Source: Flavobacterium faecale
Lineage (GTDB): Bacteria > Bacteroidota > Bacteroidia > Flavobacteriales > Flavobacteriaceae
Reading direction: 5' to 3'
DNA length: 64,000 nt
NCBI RefSeq assembly: GCF_003076455.1
Contig: NZ_CP020918.1
Location: 3,880,001 to 3,944,000 of the forward strand
Below are positions 27,757 to 64,000 of this stretch, piece by piece. Under the pieces are notes generated by a model that had not been told where the DNA came from, did no database searches, and saw nothing but the letters and a program-made list of their open reading frames with translations. The position numbers were made by a program, and so were the translations under genes. How positions within the stretch are numbered: the first letter of the stretch is position 1; each line of letters starts with the position of its first letter.

Positions 27757-27844
27757 GGAGAAATGGCAGAGCGGTCGAATGCGGCAGTCTTGAAAACTGT
27801 TGACTGTCACAGGTCCGGGGGTTCGAATCCCTCTTTCTCCGCCA
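27757..27844 (+). tRNA. tRNA-Ser (anticodon UGA)
   Basis: The 7-bp acceptor stem GGAGAAA/TTTCTCC, a long variable arm typical of class II tRNAs, the anticodon loop CTTGAAA with anticodon TGA, the T-loop GGTTCGAATCC and an encoded CCA end are all visible. The gene is complete. Its 3' part is the likely attachment site of the ICE, whose integrase starts about 260 bp downstream. Confidence 0.96.
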
Positions 27845-27874
27845 GACTAAGTTTCAAAAGAAACTTTATGAATC

Positions 27875-27908
27875 AAAAGCCTCTAAATGCTAGCATTTAG
27901 AGGCTTTT
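27875..27908. terminator. Palindromic terminator after tRNA-Ser
   Basis: A perfect 34-bp palindrome (AAAAGCCTCTAAATGC and its complement around CTAG) with terminal A and T runs. It would end tRNA transcription and block transcripts in both directions at the chromosome/ICE border. Confidence 0.75.
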
Positions 27909-27953
27909 CTCTTTTATGTGAGATGTCAAAATACACCTGTAATGTCAAAGTAC

Positions 27954-28041
27954 AGTTACCCTATTGGTTACCCTGTGCTTTTTTAAAGACTGTGAGATAA
28001 AATAGGGTAACTAAAAATTTCGAATTCCCTGGGAATTCCCT
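27954..28041. repeat. Short repeats between tRNA-Ser and the integrase
   Basis: Inverted 12-bp arms AGTTACCCTATT (27954-27965) and AATAGGGTAACT (28001-28012) flank a further GGTTACCC copy at 27966. Next to them is GAATTCCCT repeated at 28022-28030 and 28033-28041, which also forms the palindrome GGGAATTCCC. Such clusters at an ICE end are typical of arm-type integrase or excisionase binding sites, or an integrase operator. The role is inferred. Confidence 0.5.
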
Positions 28042-28104
28042 ATGGACACTAGGTTCTTAAGTGGTTTTAAATCAATTTTAATTATTAATTTAAATTCACA
28101 AACC

Positions 28105-29325
28105 ATGTTAAAAGTAAATTTTTACCTCAAAGCAGACAAAGCCAACAAAAGTGGACTTTCTCCTATTTTCGCTAAAGTAATCCTCAATAACAAATCCACA
28201 ACAATAAGCACAGGAAAGATGATTAGCCGTGAAAGGTGGCAAGCAACGAACAACCTACGGACCTCCTTACGACTCGAAAATGAAAAAATAATCCGAAATG
28301 CACTGGAAATATTCAAATTAAATTTAGAACGTAGAGTGAATGATCTGTCGAAATTCGGATCAGAAGTTTCTCTAGAAATACTAAAGGCGGGATTACGAGG
28401 AAAATTACCACCTAAAAAAAAGTCAGTAGGAATTAAAGAAATTATTGAAAAACACAATGTGTATTTTAAGAAAAAAGCTGATGCCGGTGACCGAGCTCCA
28501 GCATCACTGCAAAAGTACGAACGTGCAAAAACACTGCTTTCCACATTTTTAAAAAAACATTATCAAAAAAATGAAATGGATCTCAACACAATCGACGAAG
28601 CATTTATCTTCTCTCTAGAATCTTTTCTTCGGTATGATAGTGAATTTAAAGGTGTCGTAGGAATAAAGAATAATTCAGTTGTAAAGTACATGAGGATGTT
28701 TAAAACCGCTTGTAAACATGCTATTAGGACAGGATCAATTGAGAAAAACCCCTTTGACGTTTATGAAGGTAAGCTTAAAGTTTGTGATTCCGTATTTCTC
28801 ACTCAGGAAGAATTGAATGCAATAGAATCAAAAGAGTTTGGCACCGAACGCCTGCAAAGAGTTAAGGATATATTCCTATTTAGCTGTTATACAGGATACG
28901 CACCTACAGATGCAACCTCACTTAATGAAACAAACATTATTAAAGATTCATCTGATAGTCTTTGGATAATGACCAAACGGGCAAAAACAGACATCAGAGC
29001 AAACGTTCCATTATTGCCACCAGCTATCAAAATAATCGATAAATACCGAGGAAAGCAAACGGCATTACTTCCATCAATATCTAATCAAAAAAGGAATGCC
29101 TATCTAAAAGAAATTGGTGATGTTTGCAACGTCCAAAAAAAACTAACATGGTATGTAGCCAGACATACCTTCGCAACAACGGTTACCCTTGGAAATGGAG
29201 TTCGCATTGAAAATGTATCCGCAATGATGGGACACACCAACATTAAACAAACCCAACATTATGCAAAAGTCATGGATCAGAACGTTTTACATGACATGGA
29301 AATACTTAAAGGTATCTACCAATAA
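28105..29325 (+). CDS. int: Tyrosine recombinase / ICE integrase (IntDOT-like)
   Basis: The ATG at 28105 (MLKVNFYLKADKANKSGLSP) fits the family N-terminus better than the frame start at 28042. The ~406-aa protein has an arm-binding domain with 'ISRERW', a SAM-like core-binding domain (about 110-215) and the catalytic domain. There the usual Arg I box 'TGLRxSD' is 'TGYAPTDATSL' (Arg replaced, as in Bacteroides IntDOT), the Lys is in 'TKRAKTD', box II is 'TWYVARHTFATT' with His replaced by Tyr, and 'MGHTNIKQTQHYAKV' carries the late His and the nucleophilic Tyr. It sits at the tRNA-Ser end and would excise and integrate the element. Confidence 0.93.
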   Translation: MLKVNFYLKADKANKSGLSPIFAKVILNNKSTTISTGKMISRERWQATNNLRTSLRLENEKIIRNALEIFKLNLERRVNDLSKFGSEVSLEILKAGLRGKLPPKKKSVGIKEIIEKHNVYFKKKADAGDRAPASLQKYERAKTLLSTFLKKHYQKNEMDLNTIDEAFIFSLESFLRYDSEFKGVVGIKNNSVVKYMRMFKTACKHAIRTGSIEKNPFDVYEGKLKVCDSVFLTQEELNAIESKEFGTERLQRVKDIFLFSCYTGYAPTDATSLNETNIIKDSSDSLWIMTKRAKTDIRANVPLLPPAIKIIDKYRGKQTALLPSISNQKRNAYLKEIGDVCNVQKKLTWYVARHTFATTVTLGNGVRIENVSAMMGHTNIKQTQHYAKVMDQNVLHDMEILKGIYQ

Positions 29326-29402: not shown

Positions 29403-29708
29403 TTATCCGTTTGTGCTTTCCTTGAGGCTTCTCTCAATCTTGGCTGCATCATATAAGAATATGTCCCCCATCTTTGTAAAAGGTAGGATACCTGTCTGAC
29501 GATACTTGATTATGGTATTACTAGAAAGTCCAAATATGTTTTTTAGATCCTCATTTCTATAATACTTTGGAAAATTGTTCTTCTTATTTGTATCTATCTT
29601 GGAATCAATTTCATCAATCTTCAAATATAGCGGGGAAAGAGCTTTTTTTAATACTAAAACCAATTGTTCAAATTGCATTTCTTTTTCATCAATTTCTTTT
29701 CTTTCCAT
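29403..29708 (-). CDS. Helix-turn-helix protein, excisionase-like
   Basis: A 101-aa protein. The first 45 residues are a helical, charged region; residues ~48-95 form a MerR/excisionase-type winged helix: 'YYRNEDLKNIFGLSSNTIIKYRQTGILPFTKMGDIFLYDAAKIERSL'. Proteins of this kind lie beside integrases in Bacteroidota ICEs and act as recombination directionality factors or regulators. It converges with the integrase gene. The role as Xis is inference from motif and position. Confidence 0.75.
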   Translation of the reverse strand: MERKEIDEKEMQFEQLVLVLKKALSPLYLKIDEIDSKIDTNKKNNFPKYYRNEDLKNIFGLSSNTIIKYRQTGILPFTKMGDIFLYDAAKIERSLKESTNG

Positions 29709-29741
29709 GGCTGTCAGATTTTAATAATTTAATTGTAAATA

Positions 29742-30185
29742 CTATGTCCTATTAAGTTTTTCCTTCTTTGAATTTAACAATCTAATAAACTTTTCAAGAT
29801 AGCGGATTTGTTTTTCCTTATAGGTAAATCCTCTACATTCCGAAAAATGCCTACTTGTACCCATTATATTATGCTGCACCTTCCCTTCTCCAGAGTAGGT
29901 AAAATGTCGCTCAATAAAATATTGAAATTGGCTTCTGTTCTTTTTCTCATCTATGTTATCAAAAAACCATATCCCTTCCTCCATCAAAATATGAAAAAGA
30001 TAAATCAGTTCCCCTTTTTGCAAATTTGAACTGCATTTGGTATTTGTAGAACTTTCTACACCAATTGCCAGACTTCTACACCTACCTCCTTTACCAAGCA
30101 AAAATTCCTCAATACGAGTTATCCTCTCATTTAGAATCTGCATCTCGTATGGAGCTTCATCATTGTCGCTTATTTTATTTTTCAT
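29742..30185 (-). CDS. RteC-like protein of the ICE regulation module
   Basis: A 147-aa soluble protein. The C-terminal half 'NLQKGELIYLFHILMEEGIWFFDNI...FIERHFTY...' then 'RYLEKFIRLLNSK' resembles the C-terminal domain of RteC, the CTnDOT activator of the excision operon, in which 'ELIYALH...G.F' is followed by a paired helix. The match is partial and it could be another ICE regulator. It is upstream of the Xis-like gene on the same strand, as expected for control of excision. Confidence 0.5.
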   Translation of the reverse strand: MKNKISDNDEAPYEMQILNERITRIEEFLLGKGGRCRSLAIGVESSTNTKCSSNLQKGELIYLFHILMEEGIWFFDNIDEKKNRSQFQYFIERHFTYSGEGKVQHNIMGTSRHFSECRGFTYKEKQIRYLEKFIRLLNSKKEKLNRT

Positions 30186-31121: not shown

Positions 31122-31514
31122 ATGAACATCCTCGGAAGATTAACAAAGGATGCGGAAATACACAGAACCCCGCAAGACAAACAAGTAGTAAATTTTTCAG
31201 TGGCTATCAATGATAGCTACAGAAATAAGCAAGGCGAACGCATAGAGCAAACAAGCTATTTTGATTGCTCCTACTGGAGAAGTCCAAATATTGCAAAAAT
31301 ACTAAACAAAGGCGCTTTAGTTGAGCTTACAGGCAGAGTAAGTGCAAGAGCCTGGACAGCTATTAACGGAGAATTAAAATCAAGTTTGAATTTTCATACA
31401 TCGACTATAAAATTGTACGGAGGTAGCAAGAAAATTGAATTTAAACAAGGAATTACAAAACAGAATAATACAAAGATCATCACACCAGAACCTGTTGAGG
31501 ATTTACCCTTTTAA
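31122..31514 (+). CDS. ssb: Single-stranded DNA-binding protein (ICE copy)
   Basis: A 130-aa OB-fold SSB: 'MNILGRLTKDAEIHRTPQDKQVVNFSVAIND', 'TSYFDCSYWR', 'KGALVELTGRVSARAW', and an acidic C-terminal tail ending DLPF, the docking tip for partner proteins. It coats single-stranded transfer DNA. The start lacks the usual first 'x-x-N-K-V' residues and begins directly at MNILG, a slightly short form common on plasmids and ICEs. It is 45 bp from the DUF932 gene. Confidence 0.93.
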   Translation: MNILGRLTKDAEIHRTPQDKQVVNFSVAINDSYRNKQGERIEQTSYFDCSYWRSPNIAKILNKGALVELTGRVSARAWTAINGELKSSLNFHTSTIKLYGGSKKIEFKQGITKQNNTKIITPEPVEDLPF

Positions 31515-31559: not shown

Positions 31560-32627
31560 ATGGCACACAATTTAAATTTCAATGAAAGAACGGGACGCTA
31601 TTCATTTTTTAGCGTACAACAAAAAGCTTGGCACGGCTTAGGGCAAATAGTAACAGACTATCCGACAAGTGCAGAAGCAATTAAACACGCAGGACTTGAC
31701 TATGAAGTGATAAAAAGTCCTCTTTATTCCAAGGTATCAAACGTAATTGATTCTAATGACAGTATATCAATTAGAGACAATGAACTAAAAGTGCCTAATT
31801 ATTTTGCTACTACCCGTACTGATAACAATACTGTTTTGGGTGTAGTCGGTAAAGAGTATCATATTGTACAAAATTGTGAAGCATTTAGTTTCTTTGATGC
31901 TATTGTAGGTGGTACAGATGGAATTATGTACGAGACTGCAGGCGCATTAGGTAATGGAGAACGCATTTTTATTACAGCAAAATTACCTAACTATATTCGT
32001 GTTGGTAATGGTGATGATATTACAGAAAAATATATTTTTCTCACTACTTCGCATGATGGTAGCGGCAGTATTACTGCAGCTTTTACACCTGTTAGAATTG
32101 TTTGCCAAAATACACTAAATGCTTCTCTTCGAAATATGAGTAATGTGGTGAGAATTCGTCACACTTCAGGAGCAAAACAACGTTTGGAAAATGCGCACAA
32201 AGTAATGGGATTAGCAAACGAATTTAGCAATCAATTAGAGGGTATTTTTAATAATTGGGCAAAAGTAAAAGTGAATGATAATGAGGTTAAGAAAATGATA
32301 CAATTCGCACTATGCCCTAATAAGGAAACCTTACAGTATCTCAAAACTGGAAATGATGCTGAATTGTCCACCGTATTTAAAAACACGGTTGAAGATGCTT
32401 TTGCCTATGCTATGACAAGCGACTCACAACAAATGAACACCACAAAAGGAACTTTGTTTGGAGCTTACAACGCTGTAACAGGATACTATCAAAATGTGCG
32501 AAGCTATAAGGACAATGAAGCAAAATTGCAATCTATTATTTTGGGAGGTACTGCACAATTAAAATCTCAAAAGGCATTTGAAATCTGTACAAATTTTCAA
32601 AATATGGGTACCAATTGCTTTAATTAA
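31560..32627 (+). CDS. DUF932 / TIGR03299 phage-plasmid protein
   Basis: A 355-aa protein beginning 'MAHNLNFNERTGRYSFFSVQQKAWHGLGQIV', with 'YFATTRTDNNTVLGVVGKEYHIVQNCEAFSFFDAI', 'GERIFITAKLP', 'FLTTSHDGSGSITAAFTPVRIVCQNTLNASL' and the helical C-terminus. These are the conserved blocks of DUF932, found on plasmids, phages and ICEs. Its molecular function is unknown; DNA maintenance in the recipient is often guessed. It is downstream of ssb and followed by a terminator. Confidence 0.9.
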   Translation: MAHNLNFNERTGRYSFFSVQQKAWHGLGQIVTDYPTSAEAIKHAGLDYEVIKSPLYSKVSNVIDSNDSISIRDNELKVPNYFATTRTDNNTVLGVVGKEYHIVQNCEAFSFFDAIVGGTDGIMYETAGALGNGERIFITAKLPNYIRVGNGDDITEKYIFLTTSHDGSGSITAAFTPVRIVCQNTLNASLRNMSNVVRIRHTSGAKQRLENAHKVMGLANEFSNQLEGIFNNWAKVKVNDNEVKKMIQFALCPNKETLQYLKTGNDAELSTVFKNTVEDAFAYAMTSDSQQMNTTKGTLFGAYNAVTGYYQNVRSYKDNEAKLQSIILGGTAQLKSQKAFEICTNFQNMGTNCFN

Positions 32628-32983: not shown

Positions 32984-34699
32984 CTAAAGCAAGTTCATCA
33001 CTATACTAAAAGTACTCCCAAAACCAAGTTCGCTGTCCACTGTGATCTTTCCTTGTTGTGCTTCGATGAATTCTTTACTGATTGCTAATCCCAAGCCAGT
33101 TCCAGATTTACTACTTCCTGGTATTTGAAAATACTTATCAAAAACTCTATTTTTATATCTAGAATCAATTCCTTTGCCTGTATCGATAACTTTGAATATA
33201 ACTTGATCAACTGATTTTCTTACTTGTACAATAATTTTACTTTCTGTAGTAGAATAAGTAATGGCATTGGTTAAAAAATTGATTAATACCCAGGACGTTT
33301 TTTCACTATCTGCATTTATAAACGGTAAATTTTCTTCTTCATCAAGAACAATTTCAATTTGTTTATTTTCTGCTTGCATTTTTACAGCTTCAACAGCATA
33401 GTGAACTATTGAATAAGGACTTGTTTTCTCAATTTTCAAATTTATTTTTCCAGTTTCTAACTGTGAAATATCTAACAGCTCTCCCGTTAATTTAAGTAGT
33501 CTTTCACTATCCTCTTTTATACTGTCTAAGAGTTGCTTTTGCTCCTTGTTAATTGCTCCTGTTACTTCTTTTTCTAAAAGCTGTAAACTAAATTTTATAG
33601 AGGATATAGGCGTTTTTAGTTCATGTGATACGGTCGCTATAAAGTTGGTCTTAGCAAAATCTAATTCTTTGAAAAAAGTGACATTTCTTAGAATAATTAC
33701 ATTTCCAATAGCGATCTCTTTCTCCTCCCCTGTTGGCGTAATCGTAATATCGACCACTTCTTTTTCGAAATAGCTTTCTCTATCATCAGCAAAAATTTTT
33801 ATTGGTAATACCTTTTCATTAATTTCTGAGGTGATTAGCATTCGTATTAAATCATTATTTACAGCCAAAGAACCTACATTTTTACCTACAACCTCACCTT
33901 GTTTTAAGCCAAATATAGCCAAAGCTTCATCATTAACAAATAATATAGTATTGCTCGTGTCTAATCCTATAATAGGATCATGCATTTTGTTAATTAATGT
34001 TTCTAATCTTTTCTTTTCGAAAGACAAACTATACAAATTGCTGTTGTTATACTCTTCTAACTTTTCGGCCATCACGTTAAAGGAACGAGCCAAGTCACCA
34101 AATTCATTGTGTTGTAAAAAATGTACCCTTTCTGAGTAGTTTTTATTGGCTATTTCTTGAATACTCGTTGTTAATTCTTTGATGGGATTAGCGATATTAT
34201 TGGGTAAATTCACTAATAAGTTAAAGGCTATCAGGAAACACAAAGTTCCCAATATCATGATATAAAAATTTGCTGTTTCGGCAGTCTTCTGAGCGATATC
34301 GCTCTTTAGTTTTATGGCATCGGTATTCAGTTTCATGATCTGTAAAATTGCATCATTCATCTCCGCTTTAGCTTCAGCTGATCCATTTTCCTCCTTTAAT
34401 GATTGAAAAGCTGTTTTAAGCTTATTGGTCATATTCGCTTCGTTTTTCTCCGTAATATTCAGAAGCTGTAAATCTAAATTTTTACCAAAAATCACAATAG
34501 CATCCGTATTATTCTCACCAATGCCCTCCATTGCCATTAACATATTCCTAGAATACTCTAAGGAATCATAATTGGCTTTAAGGATATTTTGGGTATCTTG
34601 TTTTATCGAATTGATATAATAGACACTAACAACTGAAAGTAAAATTATTAATGCAAATAATAAGCCTACACTTAAGTTTAATTTAGTTTTAATTCTCAT
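32984..34699 (-). CDS. Sensor histidine kinase (HAMP-PAS-HisKA-HATPase), Kdp cluster
   Basis: A 571-aa membrane kinase. TM1 is about 8-28, a helical periplasmic sensor domain about 30-145, TM2 about 147-168, HAMP 'PIKELTTSIQEIANKNYSER' follows, then a PAS domain starting near 'LETLINKMHDPIIGLDT'. The H-box 'NFIATVSHELKTPISSIK' carries the phospho-accepting His. The ATPase boxes are 'WVLINFLTNAITYS', 'VIDTGKGID' and 'GTGLGLAIS'. Its start overlaps the KdpD-like stop by one base (TAATG), so the two are translationally coupled. It probably supplies the kinase activity missing from that KdpD module. Confidence 0.92.
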   Translation of the reverse strand: MRIKTKLNLSVGLLFALIILLSVVSVYYINSIKQDTQNILKANYDSLEYSRNMLMAMEGIGENNTDAIVIFGKNLDLQLLNITEKNEANMTNKLKTAFQSLKEENGSAEAKAEMNDAILQIMKLNTDAIKLKSDIAQKTAETANFYIMILGTLCFLIAFNLLVNLPNNIANPIKELTTSIQEIANKNYSERVHFLQHNEFGDLARSFNVMAEKLEEYNNSNLYSLSFEKKRLETLINKMHDPIIGLDTSNTILFVNDEALAIFGLKQGEVVGKNVGSLAVNNDLIRMLITSEINEKVLPIKIFADDRESYFEKEVVDITITPTGEEKEIAIGNVIILRNVTFFKELDFAKTNFIATVSHELKTPISSIKFSLQLLEKEVTGAINKEQKQLLDSIKEDSERLLKLTGELLDISQLETGKINLKIEKTSPYSIVHYAVEAVKMQAENKQIEIVLDEEENLPFINADSEKTSWVLINFLTNAITYSTTESKIIVQVRKSVDQVIFKVIDTGKGIDSRYKNRVFDKYFQIPGSSKSGTGLGLAISKEFIEAQQGKITVDSELGFGSTFSIVMNLL

Positions 34700-35826
34700 T
34701 AGGATAAAATTATAAGGTCGACATTTGATGAAGCCAACTTATTTAATAATTTATTAAATATACTTGAAGACAAAATTACTTTAAATAAATTGAAATGTGG
34801 TTTTCCTATGCAAACCGTTGTAATCTGTTTTTGCTCTACTACTTCGAGAATAGCATCGGTAATTTTATTGCTTTCTTTTTTAATTACTTCGGCGCCTAAT
34901 TGAGTTGCTAATTTTAAATTATTTATAAGATAGCGCTGCTTAGCAAGCGGAATTCTAATACTACTTTCTTTTGGTGTTTGCACATACAAAACCATCCACT
35001 TACTATTGTAATAACTTGCTAAACGCGCCGTTTTTCTGATAACAATTTTAGCCGTTTTGTCGTTACTACTAATACAAGCCAATAATTTATCTTGTCTAAA
35101 ATTGGTATTTCTAGGCTTTTCATGCTCTACTTTTCGCACTACTTGACTCGCAACTTCTTTAAGTGCTAATTCACGTAATTGAAGAATCTGATCTGACTTA
35201 AAAAAATTAGTCAGAGCCAATTGTATTTTGTTCTCCGTATAAATTTTCCCTTCCTTTAATCTGTTTATCAATTCCTCTGCGGTTAGATCAATATTGACTA
35301 CTTCATCTGCCATACTTAAAACCTTATCGGGTACCCGCTCTTGCACTTCAACGCCAGTCACCTCCTTGACAACGTTATTTAAACTTTCTATATGTTGAAT
35401 GTTTACAGCAGAAATAACGTTAATACCAGCTTCTAAAACTTCCAAAATATCCTGCCACCGTTTTTCATTTTTACTACCCTGAATATTAGAGTGTGCTAGT
35501 TCATCTATAATTACGACCTCTGGCCTCAGATTAATTATTGCTTGAACATCTAGTTCCTCTAGTTCTTTACCTTTATAGAAAATTGTTCGCCTTGGTATTA
35601 TAGGCAAACCAGTTAGTAATTCCTGAGTTTCTTTTCTAGCATGTGTCTCTATATAACCTATTTTGACATCAATTCCTTTTTTTAATAAAGAGTGAGCTTC
35701 TTGTAGCATTCTATACGTTTTACCTACTCCGGCACTCATACCAATGTAGATTTTAAACTTTCCTTTTCTGGATTTTTGAATCAAATCCAAAAAATACTGT
35801 GCATTATTCTGTCTTTCTTGTTCCAT
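34699..35826 (-). CDS. kdpD: KdpD sensor module without kinase domain
   Basis: A 375-aa cytoplasmic protein equal to the N-terminal part of KdpD. The KdpD domain (about 20-230) has the Walker A 'GMSAGVGKTYRML' and 'VVIIDELAHSNIQGSKNEKRWQDI', followed by a universal-stress-like domain (about 245-375) with 'LLACISSN' and 'TVCIGKPHFNLF'. There are no membrane helices and no HisKA/HATPase. It is coupled by a TAATG overlap to the next gene, a histidine kinase, so the classical fused KdpD appears split in two. A kinase-less KdpD is also known from Anabaena. Confidence 0.92.
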   Translation of the reverse strand: MEQERQNNAQYFLDLIQKSRKGKFKIYIGMSAGVGKTYRMLQEAHSLLKKGIDVKIGYIETHARKETQELLTGLPIIPRRTIFYKGKELEELDVQAIINLRPEVVIIDELAHSNIQGSKNEKRWQDILEVLEAGINVISAVNIQHIESLNNVVKEVTGVEVQERVPDKVLSMADEVVNIDLTAEELINRLKEGKIYTENKIQLALTNFFKSDQILQLRELALKEVASQVVRKVEHEKPRNTNFRQDKLLACISSNDKTAKIVIRKTARLASYYNSKWMVLYVQTPKESSIRIPLAKQRYLINNLKLATQLGAEVIKKESNKITDAILEVVEQKQITTVCIGKPHFNLFKVILSSSIFNKLLNKLASSNVDLIILS

Positions 35827-37722: not shown

Positions 37723-37787
37723 GATAATATATTTTTTAGATTGAAAAAAGGGAGACAACATTACGTCTCCCTGATTTTATTATTTTC

Positions 37788-42646: not shown

Positions 42647-42701
42647 TTGAATGTTATTTATTTTCTACTGCAATGCCAAAAGACATTCCAAAAAAGCAAC
42701 A

Positions 42702-47156: not shown

Positions 47157-47167
47157 CTTTTCAATAG

Positions 47168-49439: not shown

Positions 49440-49463
49440 TTGTATTCGTTATTAAAATGTTTA

Positions 49464-52297: not shown

Positions 52298-52307
52298 ACC
52301 GCAAATA

Positions 52308-52610: not shown

Positions 52611-52969
52611 GATTTGAAAAAATTAAATTGTTCTTTATTCCTGCACTTTGCAGGACTACGGAACAAAGGTGTTATAGAAAAAGAGGCGTTATAATAATTT
52701 GGCAGTGTGTGGAATCACTTGGTTGTGGCTGGCTATTACAACTTTGATTTGAAGGTGAATTTTGAAATGTTCTTGCTCAATTGTATTGAAACTTATTTAA
52801 GAAAATATGCTCTTGTCAAACTTGTGATTTATTATCCAATTTTGTTTAATTTTGAATTATTAAGACAAGTCTTAATATTCCAAATATCACTAGGAAAGCG
52901 CATAAAAGAATTAAGAGCAATCAAGGGTGACCATTTAGAATAATGGATAAGAAACTATAAACAGCGATT
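52611..52969. other. Divergent spacer between traE and the defence cassette
   Basis: It separates the divergent traE operon and the OLD nuclease gene and should contain both promoters. The only coding signal is a short XRE-like fragment at its right end. The sequence is AT-rich and no clear terminator is seen. Confidence 0.5.
52882..52943 (+). pseudogene. N-terminal scrap of an XRE-type regulator
   Basis: The open frame ending at 52943 closes with 'ISLGKRIKELRAIKGDHLE', which matches helix 1 of XRE/Cro HTH proteins (LGKRIKELRxxKGLSQEELA) and then stops where helix 2 should begin. It lies 26 bp before the OLD nuclease start. It looks like the stub of a regulator truncated when the defence cassette was joined here. 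The identification rests on about 18 residues. Confidence 0.35.
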
Positions 52970-55051: not shown

Positions 55052-56964
55052 ATTTAGAACTCGAAGTAAAAGAAATATTTCAATCAATTGATGAAGGTAG
55101 AAATTTCCTTCTTAGTGGTGGAGCTGGTAGTGGCAAAACCTATTCTTTAGTAAGTGTAATTCGTCAGGCAATTTTAGAAAATCCAACTGCTAAAGTTGCT
55201 TGTATGACTTATACAAATGCGGCTGTTAAAGAAATTGAAGAAAGGGTTAATCATAATAACCTAAACGTATCTACAATCCACGATTTTCTTTGGGATAATA
55301 TAAAACACTTTCAAAAAGAGCTTAAAGTAGCTATTATCTCATTGGCTAATGATGAAGAGGTTAGTAGAATTTCCATTGATGATGCAAACCCTATTCCTAA
55401 TACTTACTATGAGGGTCTAAAAGATGGAATACAATACAAGGAATATGTCAAGTTAAGAGATGGTATTATATCTCACGATGAATTGCTTTTGGTTGCAAAC
55501 TATCTTTTTGACAAATACCCAAAGCTTAGCCGTATAGTAAAGGATAAATTCCAATTCATCTTTATTGATGAATACCAAGATACAAGCAAAACTGTCGTAG
55601 ATACCTTTCTTACTCATTTCGAGAAAAGCGAAAGGAAAAATATTATTGGTTTCTTTGGCGATGCAATGCAATCAATTTATGAAGATGGTATTGGTAATTT
55701 AGATGAATACAAAGGTCTAGATGCACATAAAGTAAAAGAAATTCCAAAGAAACAGAATAGAAGAAATCCTCAGCTTGTTATCAATCTTGCGAACAAACTA
55801 CGGACAGATGGTATTCTGCAAGAACCTTCTATTGATACTAATGCACCTAATATGGCTGGAGGTTTGGTGAAACAAGGAACAGTTTTGTTTTTACATTCAA
55901 CCGATGGAGATATTGACAAAGTAGAAAAGTTCTTAGCTAAAAATTATGCTTGGGATTTCAAAAACACAAAGCAAACTAAAGAACTGAATCTTACACACAA
56001 TTTAATAGCTGGAAAAGCCGGGTTTAGAGCATTAATGAATATTTATGATAGTGATCCTATTATTGGATTAAAGACCGATATACTTAAAAAAATAAAGGAT
56101 AACAAAAAAAATAATAAACCTGAAATTATAATAGATGATAATGACACTTTTGATGTTGTAGTCGATAAATTTCAGTTGAAAAATATACAAAAAAAATTAA
56201 AGAAAGACCTTCTATTAGCAGACCCAATAAAGGCAGAATTGTACAATCAATTAAAAGACAAGCTGTTTTCTGATGTAAGCAAAATTTATATGAATAAGGA
56301 TGCTTTAACTGATGATAAAAAACAAGATAAAGATGATGTAAATAAAAAAGGATCAAAAAGAGATAATTTGATTAAGCATTTATTCAAAATTCAAAATATT
56401 ATATCTCTTTATAAAAACAAGCAGTATAATGAATTTTTGAGAATAACAGATTATAGAATACACATAAGAAGTATTGCTAACAAAATATTGTTGAAAGAGA
56501 ATATCGACAATCTTATAAATGTTGGAGAAAAAACAATTGAGGAAGTTATTACCGATGCTCACGAAAAAGGTATTTCCTTGATAGACGACAGATTACTTGT
56601 GTTTAAGGAGAAAAATGAATATTTATATAATCGTGTGAAAGATGTCAAATTTAATGAATTTCAGAAGTTGTACGAATACTTAGAAGGCCAAACTCCATTT
56701 TCTACGCAACATAAAACAAAAGGTGCCGAATTCGATAATGTCTTAGTCATTCTTGATAATGGAGGATGGAATAATTACAATTTTGAAAAAATGTTCTTAG
56801 GTACAGCTACTCAAAGTGTACAAGAAAGAACTCAAAAATTATTTTACGTGTGTTGTACAAGGGCTAAGGAAAGTTTAGCTGTATATTTTCATAATCCAGA
56901 CGCAACGGTAACTTTAAAAGCCAAAGAATGGTTTGGAAACGATAACGTAATTAATATTGATTAG
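55033..56964 (+). CDS. UvrD/PcrA-like helicase (Gabija GajB-like)
   Basis: A 643-aa SF1 helicase. Motif I is 'LLSGGAGSGKTYSL' (27-40), Ia 'ACMTYTNAAVKEIEERV', motif II 'FIFIDEYQDTSK', III 'GFFGDAMQSIYEDG', IV-like 'KKQNRRNPQLVINLAN', V 'STQHKTKGAEFDNVLVIL' and VI 'LFYVCCTRAKESLAVYF'. All helicase motifs are intact. The middle region (about 300-520) is lysine-rich and longer than in GajB (about 494 aa). The start lies inside the OLD gene (19-bp overlap), showing one translational unit. It converges with traD, 33 bp away. Confidence 0.88.
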   Translation: MVEERLNLELEVKEIFQSIDEGRNFLLSGGAGSGKTYSLVSVIRQAILENPTAKVACMTYTNAAVKEIEERVNHNNLNVSTIHDFLWDNIKHFQKELKVAIISLANDEEVSRISIDDANPIPNTYYEGLKDGIQYKEYVKLRDGIISHDELLLVANYLFDKYPKLSRIVKDKFQFIFIDEYQDTSKTVVDTFLTHFEKSERKNIIGFFGDAMQSIYEDGIGNLDEYKGLDAHKVKEIPKKQNRRNPQLVINLANKLRTDGILQEPSIDTNAPNMAGGLVKQGTVLFLHSTDGDIDKVEKFLAKNYAWDFKNTKQTKELNLTHNLIAGKAGFRALMNIYDSDPIIGLKTDILKKIKDNKKNNKPEIIIDDNDTFDVVVDKFQLKNIQKKLKKDLLLADPIKAELYNQLKDKLFSDVSKIYMNKDALTDDKKQDKDDVNKKGSKRDNLIKHLFKIQNIISLYKNKQYNEFLRITDYRIHIRSIANKILLKENIDNLINVGEKTIEEVITDAHEKGISLIDDRLLVFKEKNEYLYNRVKDVKFNEFQKLYEYLEGQTPFSTQHKTKGAEFDNVLVILDNGGWNNYNFEKMFLGTATQSVQERTQKLFYVCCTRAKESLAVYFHNPDATVTLKAKEWFGNDNVINID

Positions 56965-56997
56965 TTAACTCTTATTAATTTAAAGACAAAGGGGAGC

Positions 56998-57630
56998 CTA
57001 TACAAACTCCCCAATATCAAACCCCTCCAAATCATTTTTATGCAAAGAAGAAGAACCAAAATCCGTTTCTGAAGAAAGTGTACCGTCTAGCAGCTTGGCT
57101 ATTTTTTGAGAAGCATCTTCGATAGAATTTTCCAATAGGTCGAATAATTCGGTTCCTTGTATTTTCTGAAGTAGAACTGTTGCTGTTTCCTTTTGAGAGG
57201 GTCTCATTTTCTCTTTTTTTAACAACTTTTTTACAGTGCTTAATTCTTCAAAGGTAACCCCCTGGGTAAAACCATTTTCGCCATCGGATATTCCATAACT
57301 ATTCCATTCTTCTTCTTCATTCTCAAAATCAGGTACATTTCCAAAAACTTCACCCAGTTCTTCTGGTAACATTTGTAATTCGACTTTTTCTTCGTCGATT
57401 TCAATATCAAAATTATCACTAATTTGTTCCTCTTTTTGCTCTTGACTTTCATTGTCGCTTTTTGGCACAGCAAGGCTTCTTTGAGGCTTGGGTTGCCCCA
57501 TAATATCAGGTAGCTTTGGATTTCTTTTTTCTTGTACTGGCTTTTGTTCCTGATATTTTTTAATAACAATTTTATCTTGTAACAGCAGTACTATTATGAT
57601 AAGCAAGCAAATTACGATCACTGTTTCCAT
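56998..57630 (-). CDS. traD: Conjugative transposon TraD-like protein
   Basis: The ATG at 57630 (METVIVICLLIIIVLLLQDK) gives ~210 aa with one N-terminal helix, spaced 7 bp from the upstream gene stop, so it is preferred over the start at 57732 which overlaps that gene. The acidic cytoplasmic part has 'MLPEELGEVFGNVPDFENEEEEWNSYGI' and 'TFEELSTVKKLLKKEKMRPSQKETATVLLQKIQGTELFDLL', as in proteins named TraD in flavobacterial ICEs. This is not the F-type coupling protein. Its function is unknown. Confidence 0.75.
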   Translation of the reverse strand: METVIVICLLIIIVLLLQDKIVIKKYQEQKPVQEKRNPKLPDIMGQPKPQRSLAVPKSDNESQEQKEEQISDNFDIEIDEEKVELQMLPEELGEVFGNVPDFENEEEEWNSYGISDGENGFTQGVTFEELSTVKKLLKKEKMRPSQKETATVLLQKIQGTELFDLLENSIEDASQKIAKLLDGTLSSETDFGSSSLHKNDLEGFDIGEFV

Positions 57631-57637: not shown

Positions 57638-58063
57638 TTATAAAATGGGTTTGTATTTATCATTAAAACACTTGGTAATCTGCTCACCAAATTCCTGAAA
57701 ATGGTAATCCAGTAAATTATCCAAATAAGCATAAATAGAGATCTTGTCTTCGCCTATCACCTGAACAATACGGGAAAGTTTTTCATGAAAATCGGGTCTG
57801 ATATAGACCGTTTTTCCATCCCGTGCATTGGTGTCAATTCTTTTGAAAAAGATGCTTTCGTAATCCCCTTCGTTTGCCCGTTTGCCCCTACTCTTTTCTT
57901 TAATCGTGCTTTTCTCTTTGGGAGGTTCTTTATAATTCTCGTTTTCCCTTTCCTTTTCTATTGGAACTTGTAAACCTTCTTTTTTTATACCATCCACCAT
58001 CAAGTTCATCATCAACTCTTCGTTGATATCAGGAGCATTTTTTTTCTTGTTTTCTTTCTCCAT
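57638..58063 (-). CDS. DUF3408 conjugation protein (TraB/TraC position)
   Basis: A 141-aa protein with a charged, probably disordered first 75 residues and a C-terminal DUF3408 domain: 'FFKRIDTNARDGKTVYIRPDFHEKLSRIVQVIGEDKISIYAYLDNLLDYHFQEFGEQI'. The fold is ribbon-helix-helix-like, and the place between traA and traD is that of traB/traC in CTn-type elements. It probably helps DNA partition or transfer regulation. It starts 4 bp after traA ends. Confidence 0.85.
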   Translation of the reverse strand: MEKENKKKNAPDINEELMMNLMVDGIKKEGLQVPIEKERENENYKEPPKEKSTIKEKSRGKRANEGDYESIFFKRIDTNARDGKTVYIRPDFHEKLSRIVQVIGEDKISIYAYLDNLLDYHFQEFGEQITKCFNDKYKPIL

Positions 58064-58067
58064 AATT

Positions 58068-58835
58068 CTATAATTGAATGATTTTTAAAAATTCGTTTAT
58101 AAATTGATCTAACTGACAAGCTTTCATCAAACGTTCATCGGGAGGTATTACAGTAGATCGAAATACAGTTTTGCTATGTTCTTCACTTTCTTTACGAAAG
58201 CGAGTGCTGTTCTTAATTTGGCTTTGCATTAAACTTAATCCCAATTGCTCGATTAGTTGGTTGTAAACTTTGTACAAAGGCGTACTTTCCCTGCCATCGA
58301 CCTGATTCCAAAACAGGTTAATCGTTTCTATAGAAGTTGCTCCTTTTTTCATAATTACATCTTGCAATAGCTGCGTAAAAATGAGCGTGCTTTCCATAAC
58401 CAAACGATCAGCTGTAATGGGCGTAAAAATGTGGTGCATTCCTGCCAAAGCTTTTAAAATACCAGGTGTATTTACCGTTCCAGGGAGATCAAAAAACAGA
58501 ACATCAATTGGTACAATAGCATTATTTAAAAATTCCTGAGCCGCTTCCAATACGCTTTCCGCTTTGTGTTGTACTATTGGATACGCTTTTTTGTTGATGG
58601 TGGTAAATTGTTTGTAGGCTAGTTTTTTCAAATGCTCATTTTCCATAACCATGGACAGATCACGAGATTTCATTTTGATTAAACTGTGCTGAGGAAAATC
58701 GGCATCAAAGACGGCTACGTTGTAACCCAATCGATAGTGCAATGTACTTGCAACTAATGTCGTAAAGGTACTTTTTCCGACACCGCCTTTTTGAGAAGAA
58801 AAAGCGATAAATTTTGTGTTGTGATTTGCATTCAT
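58068..58835 (-). CDS. traA: ParA-type ATPase TraA
   Basis: The ATG at 58835 (MNANHNTKFIAFSSQKGGVGKS) gives ~255 aa and is preferred; the longer frame starts inside the neighbouring insertion sequence. Deviant Walker A 'SSQKGGVGKSTFT', 'NVAVFDADFPQHSL' and 'DVLFFDLPGTVNTPGI' are ParA/MinD motifs. TraA is the first gene of the Bacteroidota transfer region and may position the ICE or its transfer complex. The IS1595 element is inserted 22 bp upstream of the start codon. Confidence 0.9.
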   Translation of the reverse strand: MNANHNTKFIAFSSQKGGVGKSTFTTLVASTLHYRLGYNVAVFDADFPQHSLIKMKSRDLSMVMENEHLKKLAYKQFTTINKKAYPIVQHKAESVLEAAQEFLNNAIVPIDVLFFDLPGTVNTPGILKALAGMHHIFTPITADRLVMESTLIFTQLLQDVIMKKGATSIETINLFWNQVDGRESTPLYKVYNQLIEQLGLSLMQSQIKNSTRFRKESEEHSKTVFRSTVIPPDERLMKACQLDQFINEFLKIIQL

Positions 58836-58849
58836 AGTTCCATTGTTTT

Positions 58850-59824
58850 TAATTATTTTGAGGTCAGTAGTTACGAACATATGATTTTAGACTGATATAT
58901 TTTATCCGACTTAACCATTCGTACTATTAAATTATTGAATATTGTGTCTTTGCTTTGAGAGCGATTAATTCGATAGCAAAATTCATCAAGATACCTGTTT
59001 ATATTAAAATCACTTACTGAAGAATATGTTGTTCTAACCCATGATTTTACTTGATGTATCATCGTGTGTAATGCCATAAAATTCATCCCATTATTACTTT
59101 CTATTTGTGTGATATTGTAATGCTCAAATAAAGGACGATAGCCTTTCCATTTATCTGTAGTTATTTTTGCGCTTTTATCAATGTGCTTGTTAAATATTGT
59201 CTGTAATTCTTGAGCTGAATAATTATCAATTTTTAAGGCATACATCCTTTTAACTTTCCCCTTATCTGTTAATTCTACTGCGGTTACAATCTTTTTCTTT
59301 TTGCTGTCATAACTCCTTCCTACTTTGCCTTTTTCCTTTCCACCAATAACAAATTCATCAACATGAACGGCTCCATCCATTGGATGATTCTCACTAGACT
59401 TCATGGCTTCTCTAACTTTATGCATAAATAAACGTGCTGTTTTTTCTGTAACTCCAAAGCGAACTCCCATATAGCTAGCAGATAAACTTTTAGTTGTGGT
59501 TGACATCTCAAAACATATAAAAAAGGCTTTACGTAAACCAAACTTAACCTTATGAAATAAAGTATTTGCAGCTGCGGTTTCTGTATGACTACAAATATTA
59601 CAAGTTCTGGAAAAATCTTTACGGATTTGACTCTTTGTATGCTTACATTTTAAACAATTAAATCCTTGTTCCCATTTATAATTTGCTAAATATTCCTTGC
59701 AGTTTTCATCTGTTTTAAACCGTTCAGCAAAATCTAAAAGGTTTTGTCCTGTAAATAAATCCATAATTCGCTTGTTTTATTGACTTCTAAGATATGAAAT
59801 TATCTACTGACCTCAATAATTATT
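58850..59824. mobile_element. IS1595-family insertion sequence with 8-bp target duplication
   Basis: The element spans 58858-59816 (959 bp), bounded by perfect 13-bp inverted repeats TTGAGGTCAGTAG / CTACTGACCTCAA. The 8-bp sequence TAATTATT is duplicated directly outside (58850-58857 and 59817-59824), as IS1595 elements produce. The intact repeats and duplication indicate a fairly recent insertion. Confidence 0.92.
58871..59764 (-). CDS. IS1595-family transposase
   Basis: A 297-aa transposase. An N-terminal zinc ribbon 'CLKCKHTKSQIRKDFSRTCNIC' (four Cys) is followed by an HTH 'GVRFGVTEKTARLFMHKV' and the ISXO2-like catalytic core: first Asp in 'HVDEFVIGGKEKGKVG', second in 'ITTDKWKGYRPLF' and a late acidic group near 'NRYLDEFCYRIN'. 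Full length and apparently intact. It runs in the same direction as traA, so its transcript may read into the tra genes. Confidence 0.94.
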   Translation of the reverse strand: MDLFTGQNLLDFAERFKTDENCKEYLANYKWEQGFNCLKCKHTKSQIRKDFSRTCNICSHTETAAANTLFHKVKFGLRKAFFICFEMSTTTKSLSASYMGVRFGVTEKTARLFMHKVREAMKSSENHPMDGAVHVDEFVIGGKEKGKVGRSYDSKKKKIVTAVELTDKGKVKRMYALKIDNYSAQELQTIFNKHIDKSAKITTDKWKGYRPLFEHYNITQIESNNGMNFMALHTMIHQVKSWVRTTYSSVSDFNINRYLDEFCYRINRSQSKDTIFNNLIVRMVKSDKIYQSKIICS

Positions 59825-60511: not shown

Positions 60512-60958
60512 ATGATGATGGAAGATCAAGAGAACAAAAAACAACACAAAGGCGGTAGGAACCCCAAAAAGGATCCTAGCATACACCGTTATGTTTTTCG
60601 TTTAACGGATCAGGAAAATGCTAAATTCCTATCTCTTTTTGAAGCTTCTGGATTAGACAATAAAGCTCGTTTTATTACTTCAGTACTATTTGAAAAGCAA
60701 ATCAAAACGGTAAAAGTCGATATGGCAGCAATGGATTATTATATGCGCTTAACCACTTTGTATGGTCAATTTCGTTCAGTTGGTGTCAATTACAATCAGA
60801 TTGTCAAGATACTATACCGCAATTTTTCTGAAAAGAAAGCAGCAGCTTACCTCTTTAGATTGGAAAAACAAACAATAGAATTAGCCCAGTTGTGTCACGC
60901 TATCACTCAATTAACAGCTGAGTTTGAATTGAAACATTTGAAAAAAGAAGAAAAATGA
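60512..60958 (+). CDS. mobA: Mobilization accessory protein MobA
   Basis: A 148-aa basic protein. After a Lys-rich head, 'HRYVFRLTDQENAKFLSLFEASGLDNKARFITSVLF' is a ribbon-helix-helix type DNA-binding domain, followed by 'YYMRLTTLYGQFRSVGVNYNQIVKILYRNFSEKKAAAYLFRLEKQTIEL', as in Bacteroidota MobA / MobC-like relaxosome proteins. It would bind oriT beside MobB. It overlaps mobB by 4 bp (ATGA). Confidence 0.9.
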   Translation: MMMEDQENKKQHKGGRNPKKDPSIHRYVFRLTDQENAKFLSLFEASGLDNKARFITSVLFEKQIKTVKVDMAAMDYYMRLTTLYGQFRSVGVNYNQIVKILYRNFSEKKAAAYLFRLEKQTIELAQLCHAITQLTAEFELKHLKKEEK

Positions 60959-62271
60959 TAGCTAAAATTGGTCGTGGAGCAAATATAATTGGCGCGCTTT
61001 ATTATAATCAACTAAAAGTTGACCAAGAAAATGGAGCAATACTAGCGACCCATAGAATAAGAGAAACAGTCAATGGACAGTTTACAGTTAACCAATTATA
61101 CAGTTCATTTGAACCCTATTTAATGGCAAATAGACGAACAGAAAAACCTGTTTTACATATCTCACTTAATCCAAATCCAAAAGATAGTGTGACTGATGAA
61201 GACTTTAAAAAGATCGCGAAAGACTACATGGATCTTATGGGATATGGAGATCAGCCTTATGTAGTATTTAAACACACTGATATTGAACGAACGCACATTC
61301 ATATCGTTTCGACTTGTGTAGATCGTTACGGTAAAAAATTACCTGATTCCTATGAGAAATTGCGCTCTATGAATGCTTGTCGCGAACTGGAACAAAAATA
61401 TCAATTGCTTCCTGCTACTGAAAAGAACCAAAATTCAAAAGAAGTTATTTTTAAACCCGTTGACTACAAAGAAGCCAACGTAAAAAGTCAAATAGCATCG
61501 GTAATTCGGCATTTACCTAAGTATTATAAGTATCAAAGTTTAGGAGCTTATAATGCTTTACTTTCACTATTCAATATCACTGCCGAACAAATAACAGGAG
61601 AAATTCAAGGTCGGATTAAGCTAGGACTCGTTTATTTTGCATTGGATGAAAAAGGAGAAAAACCAACAAATCCGTTTAAATCATCTCTCTTTGGTAAACA
61701 GGCTGGCATGGAAAGTTTACAAAATCATTTTGAACAATCAAAAGTTAAAATGAAAACAGAGCCTTCGAAAGAGATTTTAAAAAATTCAATTGAAGTTGCC
61801 ATGAACACCACTACCAATGAAATCGATTTTAAGAAACAACTAGTCGATCAGGGAGTGAATACCGTCGTTCGACGAAATGATAAAGAACGAATATATGGAA
61901 TGACTTTTATCGACCACGAATCCCGCACTGTTTGGAATGGATCACAACTGAGTAAAAATTTATCTGCCAACATTTTTAATGAGTTATGGAAAAAGGATGG
62001 AACTCAAAAAGTTCCGAATCCTATTAAAATTGAAAATACAGTTTTACCTAAAAATAAAGAGAATGATTCAAAACCAGAAAATGAAAAACCACACGCTCTT
62101 TTCGATTTTCTTAATGGAAATAATTCAACCCATTCTAATATTGATTTTGGCCTTGTAGAAAGCCTTGGAAGTTTGCTGCCAAATGGACAAGGTGAAGATT
62201 ATGAAGAGCAAGCATTTGCTAATCAAATGAAGAAAAAGGCGAAACGAAACAATCATCGCGGCAAGAAATAG
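60955..62271 (+). CDS. mobB: Relaxase MobB (MOBP type)
   Basis: A 438-aa relaxase that nicks oriT and carries the strand to the recipient. The N-terminus 'MIAKIGRGANIIGALYYNQLKV' and 'ETVNGQFTVNQLYSSFEPYL' are typical. The metal-binding His motif is 'RTHIHIVSTCVDRYGKKL', with 'HISLNPNPKD' before it. The nucleophilic Tyr is probably in the first 20-40 residues. The C-terminal part is low complexity and less conserved. It overlaps mobA, so the pair is translationally coupled. Confidence 0.94.
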   Translation: MIAKIGRGANIIGALYYNQLKVDQENGAILATHRIRETVNGQFTVNQLYSSFEPYLMANRRTEKPVLHISLNPNPKDSVTDEDFKKIAKDYMDLMGYGDQPYVVFKHTDIERTHIHIVSTCVDRYGKKLPDSYEKLRSMNACRELEQKYQLLPATEKNQNSKEVIFKPVDYKEANVKSQIASVIRHLPKYYKYQSLGAYNALLSLFNITAEQITGEIQGRIKLGLVYFALDEKGEKPTNPFKSSLFGKQAGMESLQNHFEQSKVKMKTEPSKEILKNSIEVAMNTTTNEIDFKKQLVDQGVNTVVRRNDKERIYGMTFIDHESRTVWNGSQLSKNLSANIFNELWKKDGTQKVPNPIKIENTVLPKNKENDSKPENEKPHALFDFLNGNNSTHSNIDFGLVESLGSLLPNGQGEDYEEQAFANQMKKKAKRNNHRGKK

Positions 62272-62375
62272 TTTCAGCGAGACAAACAAGGTCAATTGAT
62301 GCCAACGGAAGTCAATTAACTTAGATTCTTTAACGTTCGATCTATTTTCGCTCGTTACATTTTTAACTTTTCAAT

Positions 62376-64000
62376 ATGCAAGGAGAAGACGATTTAAGAG
62401 GACTCGCCAAAATAATGGCTTTCATGCGTGCGGTAAGTATCTTATTATTATTGATGCACTTTTACTGGTTTTGTTATAGTTTTTTCTTAGAAAAAGGTTG
62501 GACGCTAGAAATCATAAATAGAATACTAGGTAATTTTCAGCGTACGGCAAGCCTGTTCTCTCATACCTTATACACCAAGATTTTTGCTTTGATATTGTTA
62601 GCTTTAAGCTGTTTGGGAACAAAAGGAGTTAAAAACGAAAAAATTAGTTGGACAAAAATATACATTGCCTTAATCATTGGATTTATACTTTTCTTTCTCA
62701 ATACACCTTTGTTGAAGTTGCCTGTTGCAAACGCTATCTCCTTGTACATCTTGACTACCTCAGCGGGCTATATTTCATTAATGATGGCCGGTGTTTGGAT
62801 TAGCCGTCTGCTTCGTACCAATCTCATGGATGATGTTTTTAATAATGAGAATGAAAGCTTTATGCAAGAAACTACATTGATGCAAAATGAATATTCTGTT
62901 AACTTGCCAACCAAATTTTATTTCAAAGGAAAATGGAATGAAGGATGGATAAACGTGGTAAATCCTTTCCGAGCCTCGATTGTTTTGGGAACACCTGGTT
63001 CTGGAAAAAGTTACGCCATCATAAACAACTATATCAAACAGCATATCGAAAAAGGATTCTCGATGTACATCTACGATTTCAAATTCGATGATCTTTCTAC
63101 AATTGCATATAATCATTTATTAAAGCATAGCGACAAGTATATTGTTAAACCAAAGTTCTATATTATCAACTTTGACGATCCTAGCAGAAGCCACCGTTGT
63201 AATCCCATCAATCCAGATTTCATGACTGACATATCAGATGCTTATGAATCTGCCTATACCATTATGTTGAATCTTAATAGGAGTTGGATCCAAAAACAAG
63301 GGGATTTCTTTGTTGAATCTCCAATTATATTACTAGCCGCTATAATCTGGTTTCTTAAAATTTATGATAATGGAAAGTACTGTACTTTTCCGCATGCCAT
63401 TGAATTATTGAACAAGAAATATGTTGATGTATTTACCATCCTTACTTCCTACCCTGATCTCGAAAACTATCTTTCGCCGTTTATGGATGCTTGGCAAGGT
63501 GGTGCACAAGATCAATTGCAAGGGCAAATCGCTTCCGCAAAAATCCCTCTGTCACGCATGATTTCGCCTCAACTCTATTGGGTTATGACCGGAGATGATT
63601 TTTCGTTGGACATTAACAATCCTAAAGAGCCTAAAATTCTATGCGTTGGTAATAATCCAGATCGTCAAAATATTTATTCAGCGGCAGTGGGTTTGTACAA
63701 TTCGAGAATTATAAAACTAATCAATAAGAAAGGAAAATTAAAAAGCTCAGTGATCATTGATGAGTTGCCAACCATCTACTTCAGAGGATTGGATAACCTA
63801 ATAGCTACCGCTAGAAGTAACAAAGTAGCCGTTTGTTTGGGATTTCAAGACTATTCGCAATTGACTCGTGATTATGGCGATAAAGAAAGTAAGGTTATCC
63901 AAAATACAGTAGGTAATATATTTAGTGGCCAGGTTGTGGGAGAAACAGCCAAAAGCTTATCAGAACGGTTTGGAAAAGTGCTACAGAAACGCCAGAGTTT
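62376..64000 (+). CDS. mobC: Type IV coupling protein MobC/TraG-like (VirD4 family), cut by window end
   Basis: It opens at the ATG at 62376 (MQGEDDLRGLAKIMAFMRAV) and stays open for 541 codons to the right edge. Four N-terminal helices (residues ~16-35, 58-78, 86-104, 115-140) carry a YWF-type membrane domain. The motor has Walker A 'VLGTPGSGKSYAII' and Walker B 'SSVIIDELPTIYFRGLDNLIATARSNKVAVCLGFQDYSQL'. It links the MobB-DNA complex to the T4SS. It starts about 105 bp after mobB. The C-terminus is missing from the window. Confidence 0.93.
   Translation, partial: MQGEDDLRGLAKIMAFMRAVSILLLLMHFYWFCYSFFLEKGWTLEIINRILGNFQRTASLFSHTLYTKIFALILLALSCLGTKGVKNEKISWTKIYIALIIGFILFFLNTPLLKLPVANAISLYILTTSAGYISLMMAGVWISRLLRTNLMDDVFNNENESFMQETTLMQNEYSVNLPTKFYFKGKWNEGWINVVNPFRASIVLGTPGSGKSYAIINNYIKQHIEKGFSMYIYDFKFDDLSTIAYNHLLKHSDKYIVKPKFYIINFDDPSRSHRCNPINPDFMTDISDAYESAYTIMLNLNRSWIQKQGDFFVESPIILLAAIIWFLKIYDNGKYCTFPHAIELLNKKYVDVFTILTSYPDLENYLSPFMDAWQGGAQDQLQGQIASAKIPLSRMISPQLYWVMTGDDFSLDINNPKEPKILCVGNNPDRQNIYSAAVGLYNSRIIKLINKKGKLKSSVIIDELPTIYFRGLDNLIATARSNKVAVCLGFQDYSQLTRDYGDKESKVIQNTVGNIFSGQVVGETAKSLSERFGKVLQKRQS

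Follow-up and report, generated by a model that had tools for sequence, protein, structure and literature searches.

A probable CTnDOT-like integrative and conjugative element of Flavobacterium faecale with kdp and Gabija genes as predicted cargo

Gene content and boundaries of the element

The window, that is the whole stretch of 64,000 nucleotides analysed here (bases 3880001-3944000 of the single-contig, 4,621,116-base genome of Flavobacterium faecale), holds in its right part the left third of a very probable integrative and conjugative element (ICE) which carries the kdp genes of a potassium pump and a Gabija defence pair. The contig was extended by 119 kb, whereby the extended coordinates continue the window numbering. 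The integration target is a tRNA-Ser(UGA) gene (27757-27844, plus strand; ARAGORN, Rfam), and from there the genes follow in the order integrase, two small open reading frames (ORFs), SSB, DUF932 protein, kdp, orf89, TraN to TraE, Gabija, orf244, DUF3408 protein, ParA, IS1595, MobC, relaxase and coupling protein (T4CP). The integrase is a tyrosine recombinase (28042-29325, plus strand; Pfam Phage_integrase, SAM_5 and Arm-DNA-bind_5). SSB (31122-31514) and the DUF932 protein (31560-32627, both plus strand) were identified by profile matches, as an earlier reading of the window from its letters alone (the sequence-only reading) had named them, and the DUF932 gene forms one border of a cargo slot, the other being orf89 (44249-44518, minus strand), which is kept in kdp-less sister ICEs. 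TraN, TraM, TraK, TraJ, TraI, TraG, TraF and TraE (44694-52610, minus strand) were assigned by Pfam, TraK by TIGR03781 above its cut-off, with the single-letter names being those which we take to correspond to the DUF-named genes. Further to the right, profile matches identified the DUF3408 protein and a ParA-like ATPase (57638-58880, minus strand), an IS1595-type transposase (58871-59764, minus strand) and MobC with the relaxase (60512-62271, plus strand), followed by the T4CP gene (62376-64000, plus strand; YWFCY, TraG-D_C and T4SS-DNA_transf), which ends at 64382 beyond the window. Past the window's right end HipA, TopB, DUF4099/DUF3945 and RteC (extended 70576-71421) are encoded. The claim of an ICE at tRNA-Ser(UGA) with integrase, tra and mob genes was borne out, as tRNA, recombinase, TraE-N and MobC/relaxase were all found. 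The two small ORFs behind the integrase (29403-30185, minus strand; 101 and 147 residues), described earlier as Xis-like, had no match in Pfam, NCBIfam or PADLOC, but relatives adjoin integrases of 61-80% identity in three kdp-less ICEs (L191, L196, L200), and they are regarded as candidate excision genes.

The core of the left attachment site (attL), CCTCTTTCTCCGC, lies in the 3' end of the tRNA gene (27830-27842, plus strand; exact match), and a direct 13-base copy of it at extended 138419-138431, 74.4 kb past the window's right end, was identified as the right attachment site (attR). This copy is the sole meaningful one of the tRNA 3' end in the extended contig; a 13-base match is weak by itself, further matches of 12-14 bases being present in the same scan, and the copy at 138419 was accepted because of its context, namely the terminator behind it and the repeat shared inside both ends. 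Directly behind attR follows CTCAAAAGCCCGAAACG..., nearly the same terminator as that behind the second tRNA-Ser(UGA) gene of the genome (position 2783346), and the repeat GTTACCCTATTNGTTACCC occurs inside both element ends, at 27955 and 138339. At the left end the repeats GTTACCCTATTGGTTACCC and TAGGGTAAC (27955-28011, no strand assigned) are probable integrase arm sites, their direct-repeat motif recurring inside the right end at 138339, and a perfect inverted repeat with a T run (27875-27908, no strand assigned; self-complementary match) would form an element-supplied hairpin behind the tRNA, probably a replacement terminator. An unoccupied site, for which the query was built in silico, was found in at least six of 150 genus genomes among the matches listed, the left flank continuing across the junction (query base 343) into the terminator; the matches span query bases 2-376 in four genomes (G166, G073, G075, G042), 2-360 in G142 and 11-389 in G148. 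Given the att repeats, the displaced tRNA terminator, the inner repeats and the empty sites, the element therefore extends over about 110.6 kb from the 3' end of tRNA-Ser(UGA) to attR. The sequence-only reading was correct on the element and on what it carries, but covered no more than the left third; it had expected attR within about 50 kb on the right, where none was found, and since attR lies 74.4 kb out this limit was too short and would have rejected a true ICE.

The kdp cassette and its slot

The kdp cassette occupies about 11.5 kb between orf89 and the DUF932 gene, with all of its features on the minus strand. From the left it comprises a histidine kinase (32984-34699; HAMP-PAS-HisKA-HATPase by profile match), a KdpD sensor domain without kinase (34699-35826; Pfam KdpD 309 bits, NCBIfam KdpD_non_kinase 371 bits, which is under its cut-off of 550), a second, divergent KdpC-like protein (35961-36521; Pfam KdpC, positions 54-182 only), an OmpL-like beta-barrel porin (BBP2, 36640-37761), KdpC (37788-38348; both by profile match), the ATPase subunit KdpB (38363-40372; TIGR01497 1020 bits, above cut-off, solved KdpB chains aligning over residues 3-666), KdpA (40385-42073; Pfam 764 bits), a 25-residue peptide seen in translation (42192-42269), a DUF7674 protein (42377-42646) and a sigma-54-type response regulator (42809-44149; both by profile match). 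Upstream of the DUF7674 gene a candidate kdp promoter, TTGGAATGTCTTTTGGCA (42674-42691), is sigma-54-like with a GG-GC spacing of 11 instead of 10, both ends being conserved in seven of seven aligned Flavobacterium loci. KdpA, KdpB and KdpC are full length and the kdp ORFs are intact. The 25-residue ORF is KdpF-like and by this resemblance presumably is KdpF, so that the kdpFABC genes with their regulators were recovered as proposed earlier. The divergent KdpC-like gene sits between porin and KdpD, and both F. frigidarium and F. muglaense have relatives in the corresponding position.

An own-genome search identified this kdpA as the sole one of the genome, TrkH had no match in the host genome (the same search found the family in 11 of 14 control genomes), and RpoN is encoded once; therefore, the host would truly benefit from a regulated K+ pump of high affinity, with expression and uptake assumed. 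Two wider promoter scans were set aside: the sigma-54 consensus scan of the window was uninformative (12 sites as against 7.7 expected), and a GG-N10-GC scan upstream of 81 kdpA genes gave a partial enrichment (mean best score 4.9 as compared to 2.7 for shuffled sequences) with no such site in the window.

TraG is present in 160 of 398 genus genomes, and 20 stretches with the same backbone were fetched from the top of this list (TraG 92-98% identical), whereby G645, which is the F. frigidarium ICE, two G042 matches located where a contig begins and one of the two matches in G044 were left aside. KdpA, B, C, D and the porin had no match in any of the 20 stretches. Eighteen were judgeable, none with kdp: in nine (L190-L198) the slot is empty, orf89 being directly followed by DUF932 with a gap of 349-412 bases (measured in seven), and in the other nine (L200, L202-L209) it is filled by 4.5-9.4 kb of other genes, which, where opened, encode among others PRTRC-system proteins, a transporter of the major facilitator superfamily and a SMODS nucleotidyltransferase. 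The two remaining ones could not be judged, L201 having no DUF932 in range and L199 being 2.2 kb long; L199 is probably the other half of the F. muglaense kdp ICE. The nearest kdp-less sisters (L197, L198) are 91.5-92.8% identical over 318 bases, and relative to them homology restarts sharply, at a defined base, towards DUF932 and stops near the orf89 stop codon at the opposite end. On this comparison kdp is regarded as exchangeable cargo of the ICE backbone; since the backbone is also met without kdp, a chromosomal locus fixed at this position can be dismissed, and the earlier proposal of kdp with its regulators as ICE cargo was confirmed in this respect.

Two other ICEs, one in F. frigidarium DSM 17623 and one in F. 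muglaense F-60, carry kdp in the identical slot, their KdpA being 93-94% and their KdpB 97% identical. These two share backbone and kdp slot with the window's ICE but differ in their integrases, which are 31% identical to that of the window and adjoin tRNA-Tyr(GTA), hence integrase and site have been exchanged independently of the backbone. A tRNA scan of ten kdp-less sister stretches identified tRNA-Tyr beside integrases of 31-33% identity in four (L190, L194, L197, L207) and tRNA-Ser(UGA) about 190-215 bases from integrases of 61-62% identity in two (L191, L200); L192 and L195 have a tmRNA and no integrase match, and L198 has no tRNA.

Proposed function and distribution of ICE-borne kdp

The locus is very probably a complete-looking CTnDOT-like ICE of about 110.6 kb, integrated into the 3' end of tRNA-Ser(UGA) and carrying kdp and Gabija as cargo, for which excision and transfer are predicted from gene content. 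Direct att repeats at both ends were found together with a site-specific integrase, and relaxase, coupling protein and Bacteroidota-type tra genes, with the exception of TraO, are present. It is suggested that the integrase would excise a circle, which the relaxase/T4CP/Tra apparatus would transfer, and that the recipient would gain a self-regulated high-affinity K+ pump. Control of this pump would lie with the KdpD sensor, the histidine kinase and the sigma-54 regulator using the host RpoN, with the porin possibly giving K+ entry through the outer membrane. The cassette would be selected as cargo for low-K+ habitats, and the transfer machinery of the ICE would not include it.

A second set of kdp-bearing ICEs spans Sphingobacterium, Pedobacter, Chryseobacterium and Weeksella, with kdp located outside the orf89-DUF932 slot. 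The kdp regulator adjoins the T4CP gene in Weeksella, S. alimentarium and S. composti and the relaxase in C. koreense, and in P. chinensis it adjoins the rteC-topB end of a related backbone; the backbone is of a more distant type in C. echinoideorum and C. senegalensis, as it is in S. composti for the tra genes nearest kdp. Among the nine loci counted to this set, KdpA is 94-100% identical across Sphingobacteriaceae and Weeksellaceae, and a similar pump has been passed from one bacterial family to another by related elements. On a tree built from 81 KdpA sequences, two state changes suffice for the 12 with an ICE-borne label as compared to a shuffled mean of 11.5, with none of 500 shuffles as low, whereby the labels are our own, unlabelled draft loci may be ICE-borne and near-copies ease clustering. 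Two captures of kdp by ICEs would be the simplest reading. In one locus (L134; G020 contig C13, 74438-74734; Chryseobacterium sp. FF12, 'senegalensis') a 70-residue T4CP scrap lies directly before the kdp response regulator, possibly the footprint of kdp moving between ICE backbones.

Of 37 genomes with the closest KdpA, 8 encode TraM no more than 50 kb away from kdpA on a shared contig, a count limited by draft contigs. In a sample of the phylum, KdpA was above cut-off in 111 of 395 genomes, and a TraM gene on the kdpA contig at a distance of up to 100 kb was identified in one genome, the window's own, of the 75 covered (the 36 omitted all belonging to one family, f18, and draft contigs being able to hide linkage). 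ICE-borne kdp is rare in this random sample.

Potassium sensing and transfer

As an alternative to kdp being cargo only, its two-component system might act as RteA/RteB do, so that K+ limitation would activate kdp and then, via rteC, excision and transfer; this K+-responsive transfer is considered unlikely, even though it fares best among the alternatives. It draws on CTnDOT, for which the excerpt of PMC1976400 describes RteA/RteB as a two-component system, with RteB activating rteC and RteC controlling excision and transfer genes. Its main anatomical support comes from the second set of ICEs, where in 6 of 80 KdpA loci the kdp histidine kinase gene is succeeded, after 62-80 bases and in the same orientation, by an intact rteC and in three more by 5' rteC remnants of 27-72 residues. 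No other observation points as strongly to a connection of K+ sensing with transfer. Against it, the other 71 loci show no rteC there (four end before the kinase and others may be cut soon after), two of the elements (G014, G019) have a second rteC elsewhere, and the spacer between kinase and rteC might encode a terminator. A weakly supported hairpin of up to 15 pairs, in which one change is compensatory and several pairs are broken, is predicted before rteC or its remnant in six loci (L027, L031, L032, L033, L034, L037) and could be a terminator or attenuator.

The window's ICE encodes RteC, next to which neither RteA nor RteB was recognised; there rteC lies more than 26 kb from the kdp regulator, no convincing motif common to the rteC and kdp upstream regions was found, and the conserved spacing-11 motif was not found before rteC. 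Five of ten kdp-less sister ICEs fetched on that side have rteC in the stretch fetched, and the window's own kdp kinase and regulator, used as tblastn queries instead of a profile, had no match in any of these ten; therefore kdp is not visibly replacing anything there. The idea that kdp replaces RteAB in the window's ICE, for which RteB-like genes near rteC were sought in the kdp-less sisters by this tblastn search, was set aside as unsupported. The link between K+ supply and transfer suggested by the sequence-only reading finds no support in the window's ICE and an anatomical one in the sister lineage. That the kdp two-component system is wired to RteC in Bacteroidota ICEs, with K+ starvation of the donor triggering the spread of the relieving pump, is likewise judged unlikely, slightly more so than K+-responsive transfer as such. 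If true, it would repeat with a nutrient ion what CTnDOT does with tetracycline by way of tetQ, rteAB and rteC. The sister lineage offers a concrete, testable case for K+ control of gene transfer.

Mobility of the element

Several observations weigh against a complete, mobile ICE. TraO was not found in the window's ICE, nor in the searched stretches of five kdp-less sisters; the ParA-DUF3408 genes are preceded by an IS1595 copy, and an inverted pair of IS630-type insertion sequence (IS) copies (98.6% identical over 1077 bases; extended 74471-75546 and 137242-138318, one about 20 bases from the right arm site), presumably IS630 by domain types, encloses 62 kb of the right part. The empty-site matches in the 150 genus genomes, among those listed, stop in the terminator, the right flank beyond being unmatched; the attR of the F. 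frigidarium ICE was not found in the 80 kb fetched, nor that of F. muglaense in 27 kb, and L196, with an integrase of 80% identity, has no tRNA in the fetched 20 kb. It might be asked whether the element is a decayed, immobile island with real att sites, stranded by IS insertions and missing tra genes and with kdp now resident, for which the missing TraO, the IS1595 copy beside the ParA gene, the inverted IS630 pair and a stop in the genome's second TraG, located in another element, could be cited. Yet no stops interrupt the ORFs of the integrase, the relaxase, T4CP and those TraE-N genes that were found, the kdp ORFs are intact, and since TraO is also missing in the five sisters its absence looks like a trait of the sub-backbone, which renders decay improbable and less likely than the K+-responsive transfer. 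That kdp is an ordinary chromosomal locus with tra genes as chance neighbours has a negligible probability and is refuted by the slot comparison, as kdp, while mostly not ICE-borne in the phylum (one linkage to TraM in 75 genomes, many of them drafts), is here bordered on both sides by ICE genes which are the same with and without it, recurs, arranged identically, beside a different integrase in two further species and is enclosed by attL and attR.

Gabija and a second cargo slot

GajA (52970-55051; OLD-family ATPase-TOPRIM; PADLOC 946 bits, Pfam AAA_15 and OLD-like TOPRIM) and GajB (55033-56964; UvrD-like; PADLOC 778 bits), both on the plus strand, are adjacent and were matched over their full length, as in known Gabija systems, and a sequence search of solved structures with GajA matched only OLD-family nucleases. 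The OLD+UvrD pair at 52970-56964, taken for Gabija-like before, is assigned as full-length Gabija with a predicted anti-phage role. In S. alimentarium Gabija was found in the same slot beside a kdp-bearing arrangement (GajA 72-90% identical, aligned in two pieces).

The gap between traE and orf244/DUF3408 (52610-56998 in the window, the same place in L124 and L210-L228) was observed to be a second cargo slot rich in defence genes. Ten proteins from eight other ICEs, one or two per ICE, were scanned at E 1e-20, a single match not being proof of a whole system: five ICEs had matches to Avs2, type I restriction (two ICEs), LmuB and HerA, the last in F. frigidarium, one had a weak 'Effector' match and two had nothing. 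Large proteins of this slot without PADLOC match at 1e-20 (L213:14945-18666, L217:5533-7614, L210:4675-6930) are candidates for undescribed defence genes.

Relation to known systems

CTnDOT-like ICEs and the element described here have in common the tyrosine recombinase, the TraE-N set, MobC/relaxase/T4CP, TopB and RteC, all of which CTnDOT possesses. The latter differs from CTnDOT by its tRNA-Ser target, by having no recognised RteA/RteB and no TraO found, by kdp and Gabija as cargo and by a surface-polysaccharide locus; the cargo of CTnDOT includes tetQ and ermF according to the excerpt of PMC1976400. That kdp can be mobile has been known before, both for plasmids and for the staphylococcal arginine catabolic mobile element (ACME). 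KdpA matched 465 of 72,556 plasmid records, 112 of them typed conjugative, and among the best 20 of the 465, the 17 non-Bacteroidota rows are 43.8-46.6% identical. Such plasmid-borne Kdp (Listeria, Rhizobium, Lactiplantibacillus and others) likewise places kdpA on potentially mobile DNA, on plasmids instead of ICEs. Three Bacteroidales 'plasmid' matches reached about 60-61%; of the two opened, one was unannotated and the other had metabolic genes and a phage-type integrase near kdp. ACME, which is not known to carry conjugation genes, shares with the window's ICE the kdp operon as mobile-element cargo, but is of the type of the staphylococcal cassette chromosome (SCC) and belongs to another phylum. 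The kdp operon is carried by ACME types IV and V (PMC7029739, in excerpt). The premise that Kdp is normally chromosomal has to be restricted for these plasmids and ACME types.

The open-access literature searched, represented mostly by titles and beginnings of abstracts, contained no description of a kdp-bearing Bacteroidota ICE. Two papers in which kdp or potassium occurs together with RteC or ICE terms describe no such element either, in the parts available: PMC10434189 has kdpA and RteC genes apart in expression tables, and PMC12649708 names kdpE as a resistance gene. As far as searched, the location of kdp in a Bacteroidota ICE, its slot and the kdp-less controls for it, the second set, which crosses families, and the idea of an rteC linkage are new. 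A basic ion-uptake system here acts as exchangeable ICE cargo that crosses family borders, with the kdp-less sister elements as natural controls, and two cargo slots, one of them defence-rich, are marked within the transfer backbone.

Two further observations concern DNA outside the window. Between the inverted IS copies, inside the ICE, lies a surface-polysaccharide locus of about 39 kb (about 80-119 kb, extended), for which part of the ORFs were scanned and a Wzc-like kinase, UDP-glucose dehydrogenase, NeuB, a cytidylyltransferase, aminotransferases and glycosyltransferases were identified; by NeuB and cytidylyltransferase it is of the nonulosonic-acid type, and PAS kinases and response regulators follow it. 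Elsewhere in the same genome (G000 3687956-3696076) a second tra set of another type was found, with a TAG stop within its TraG.

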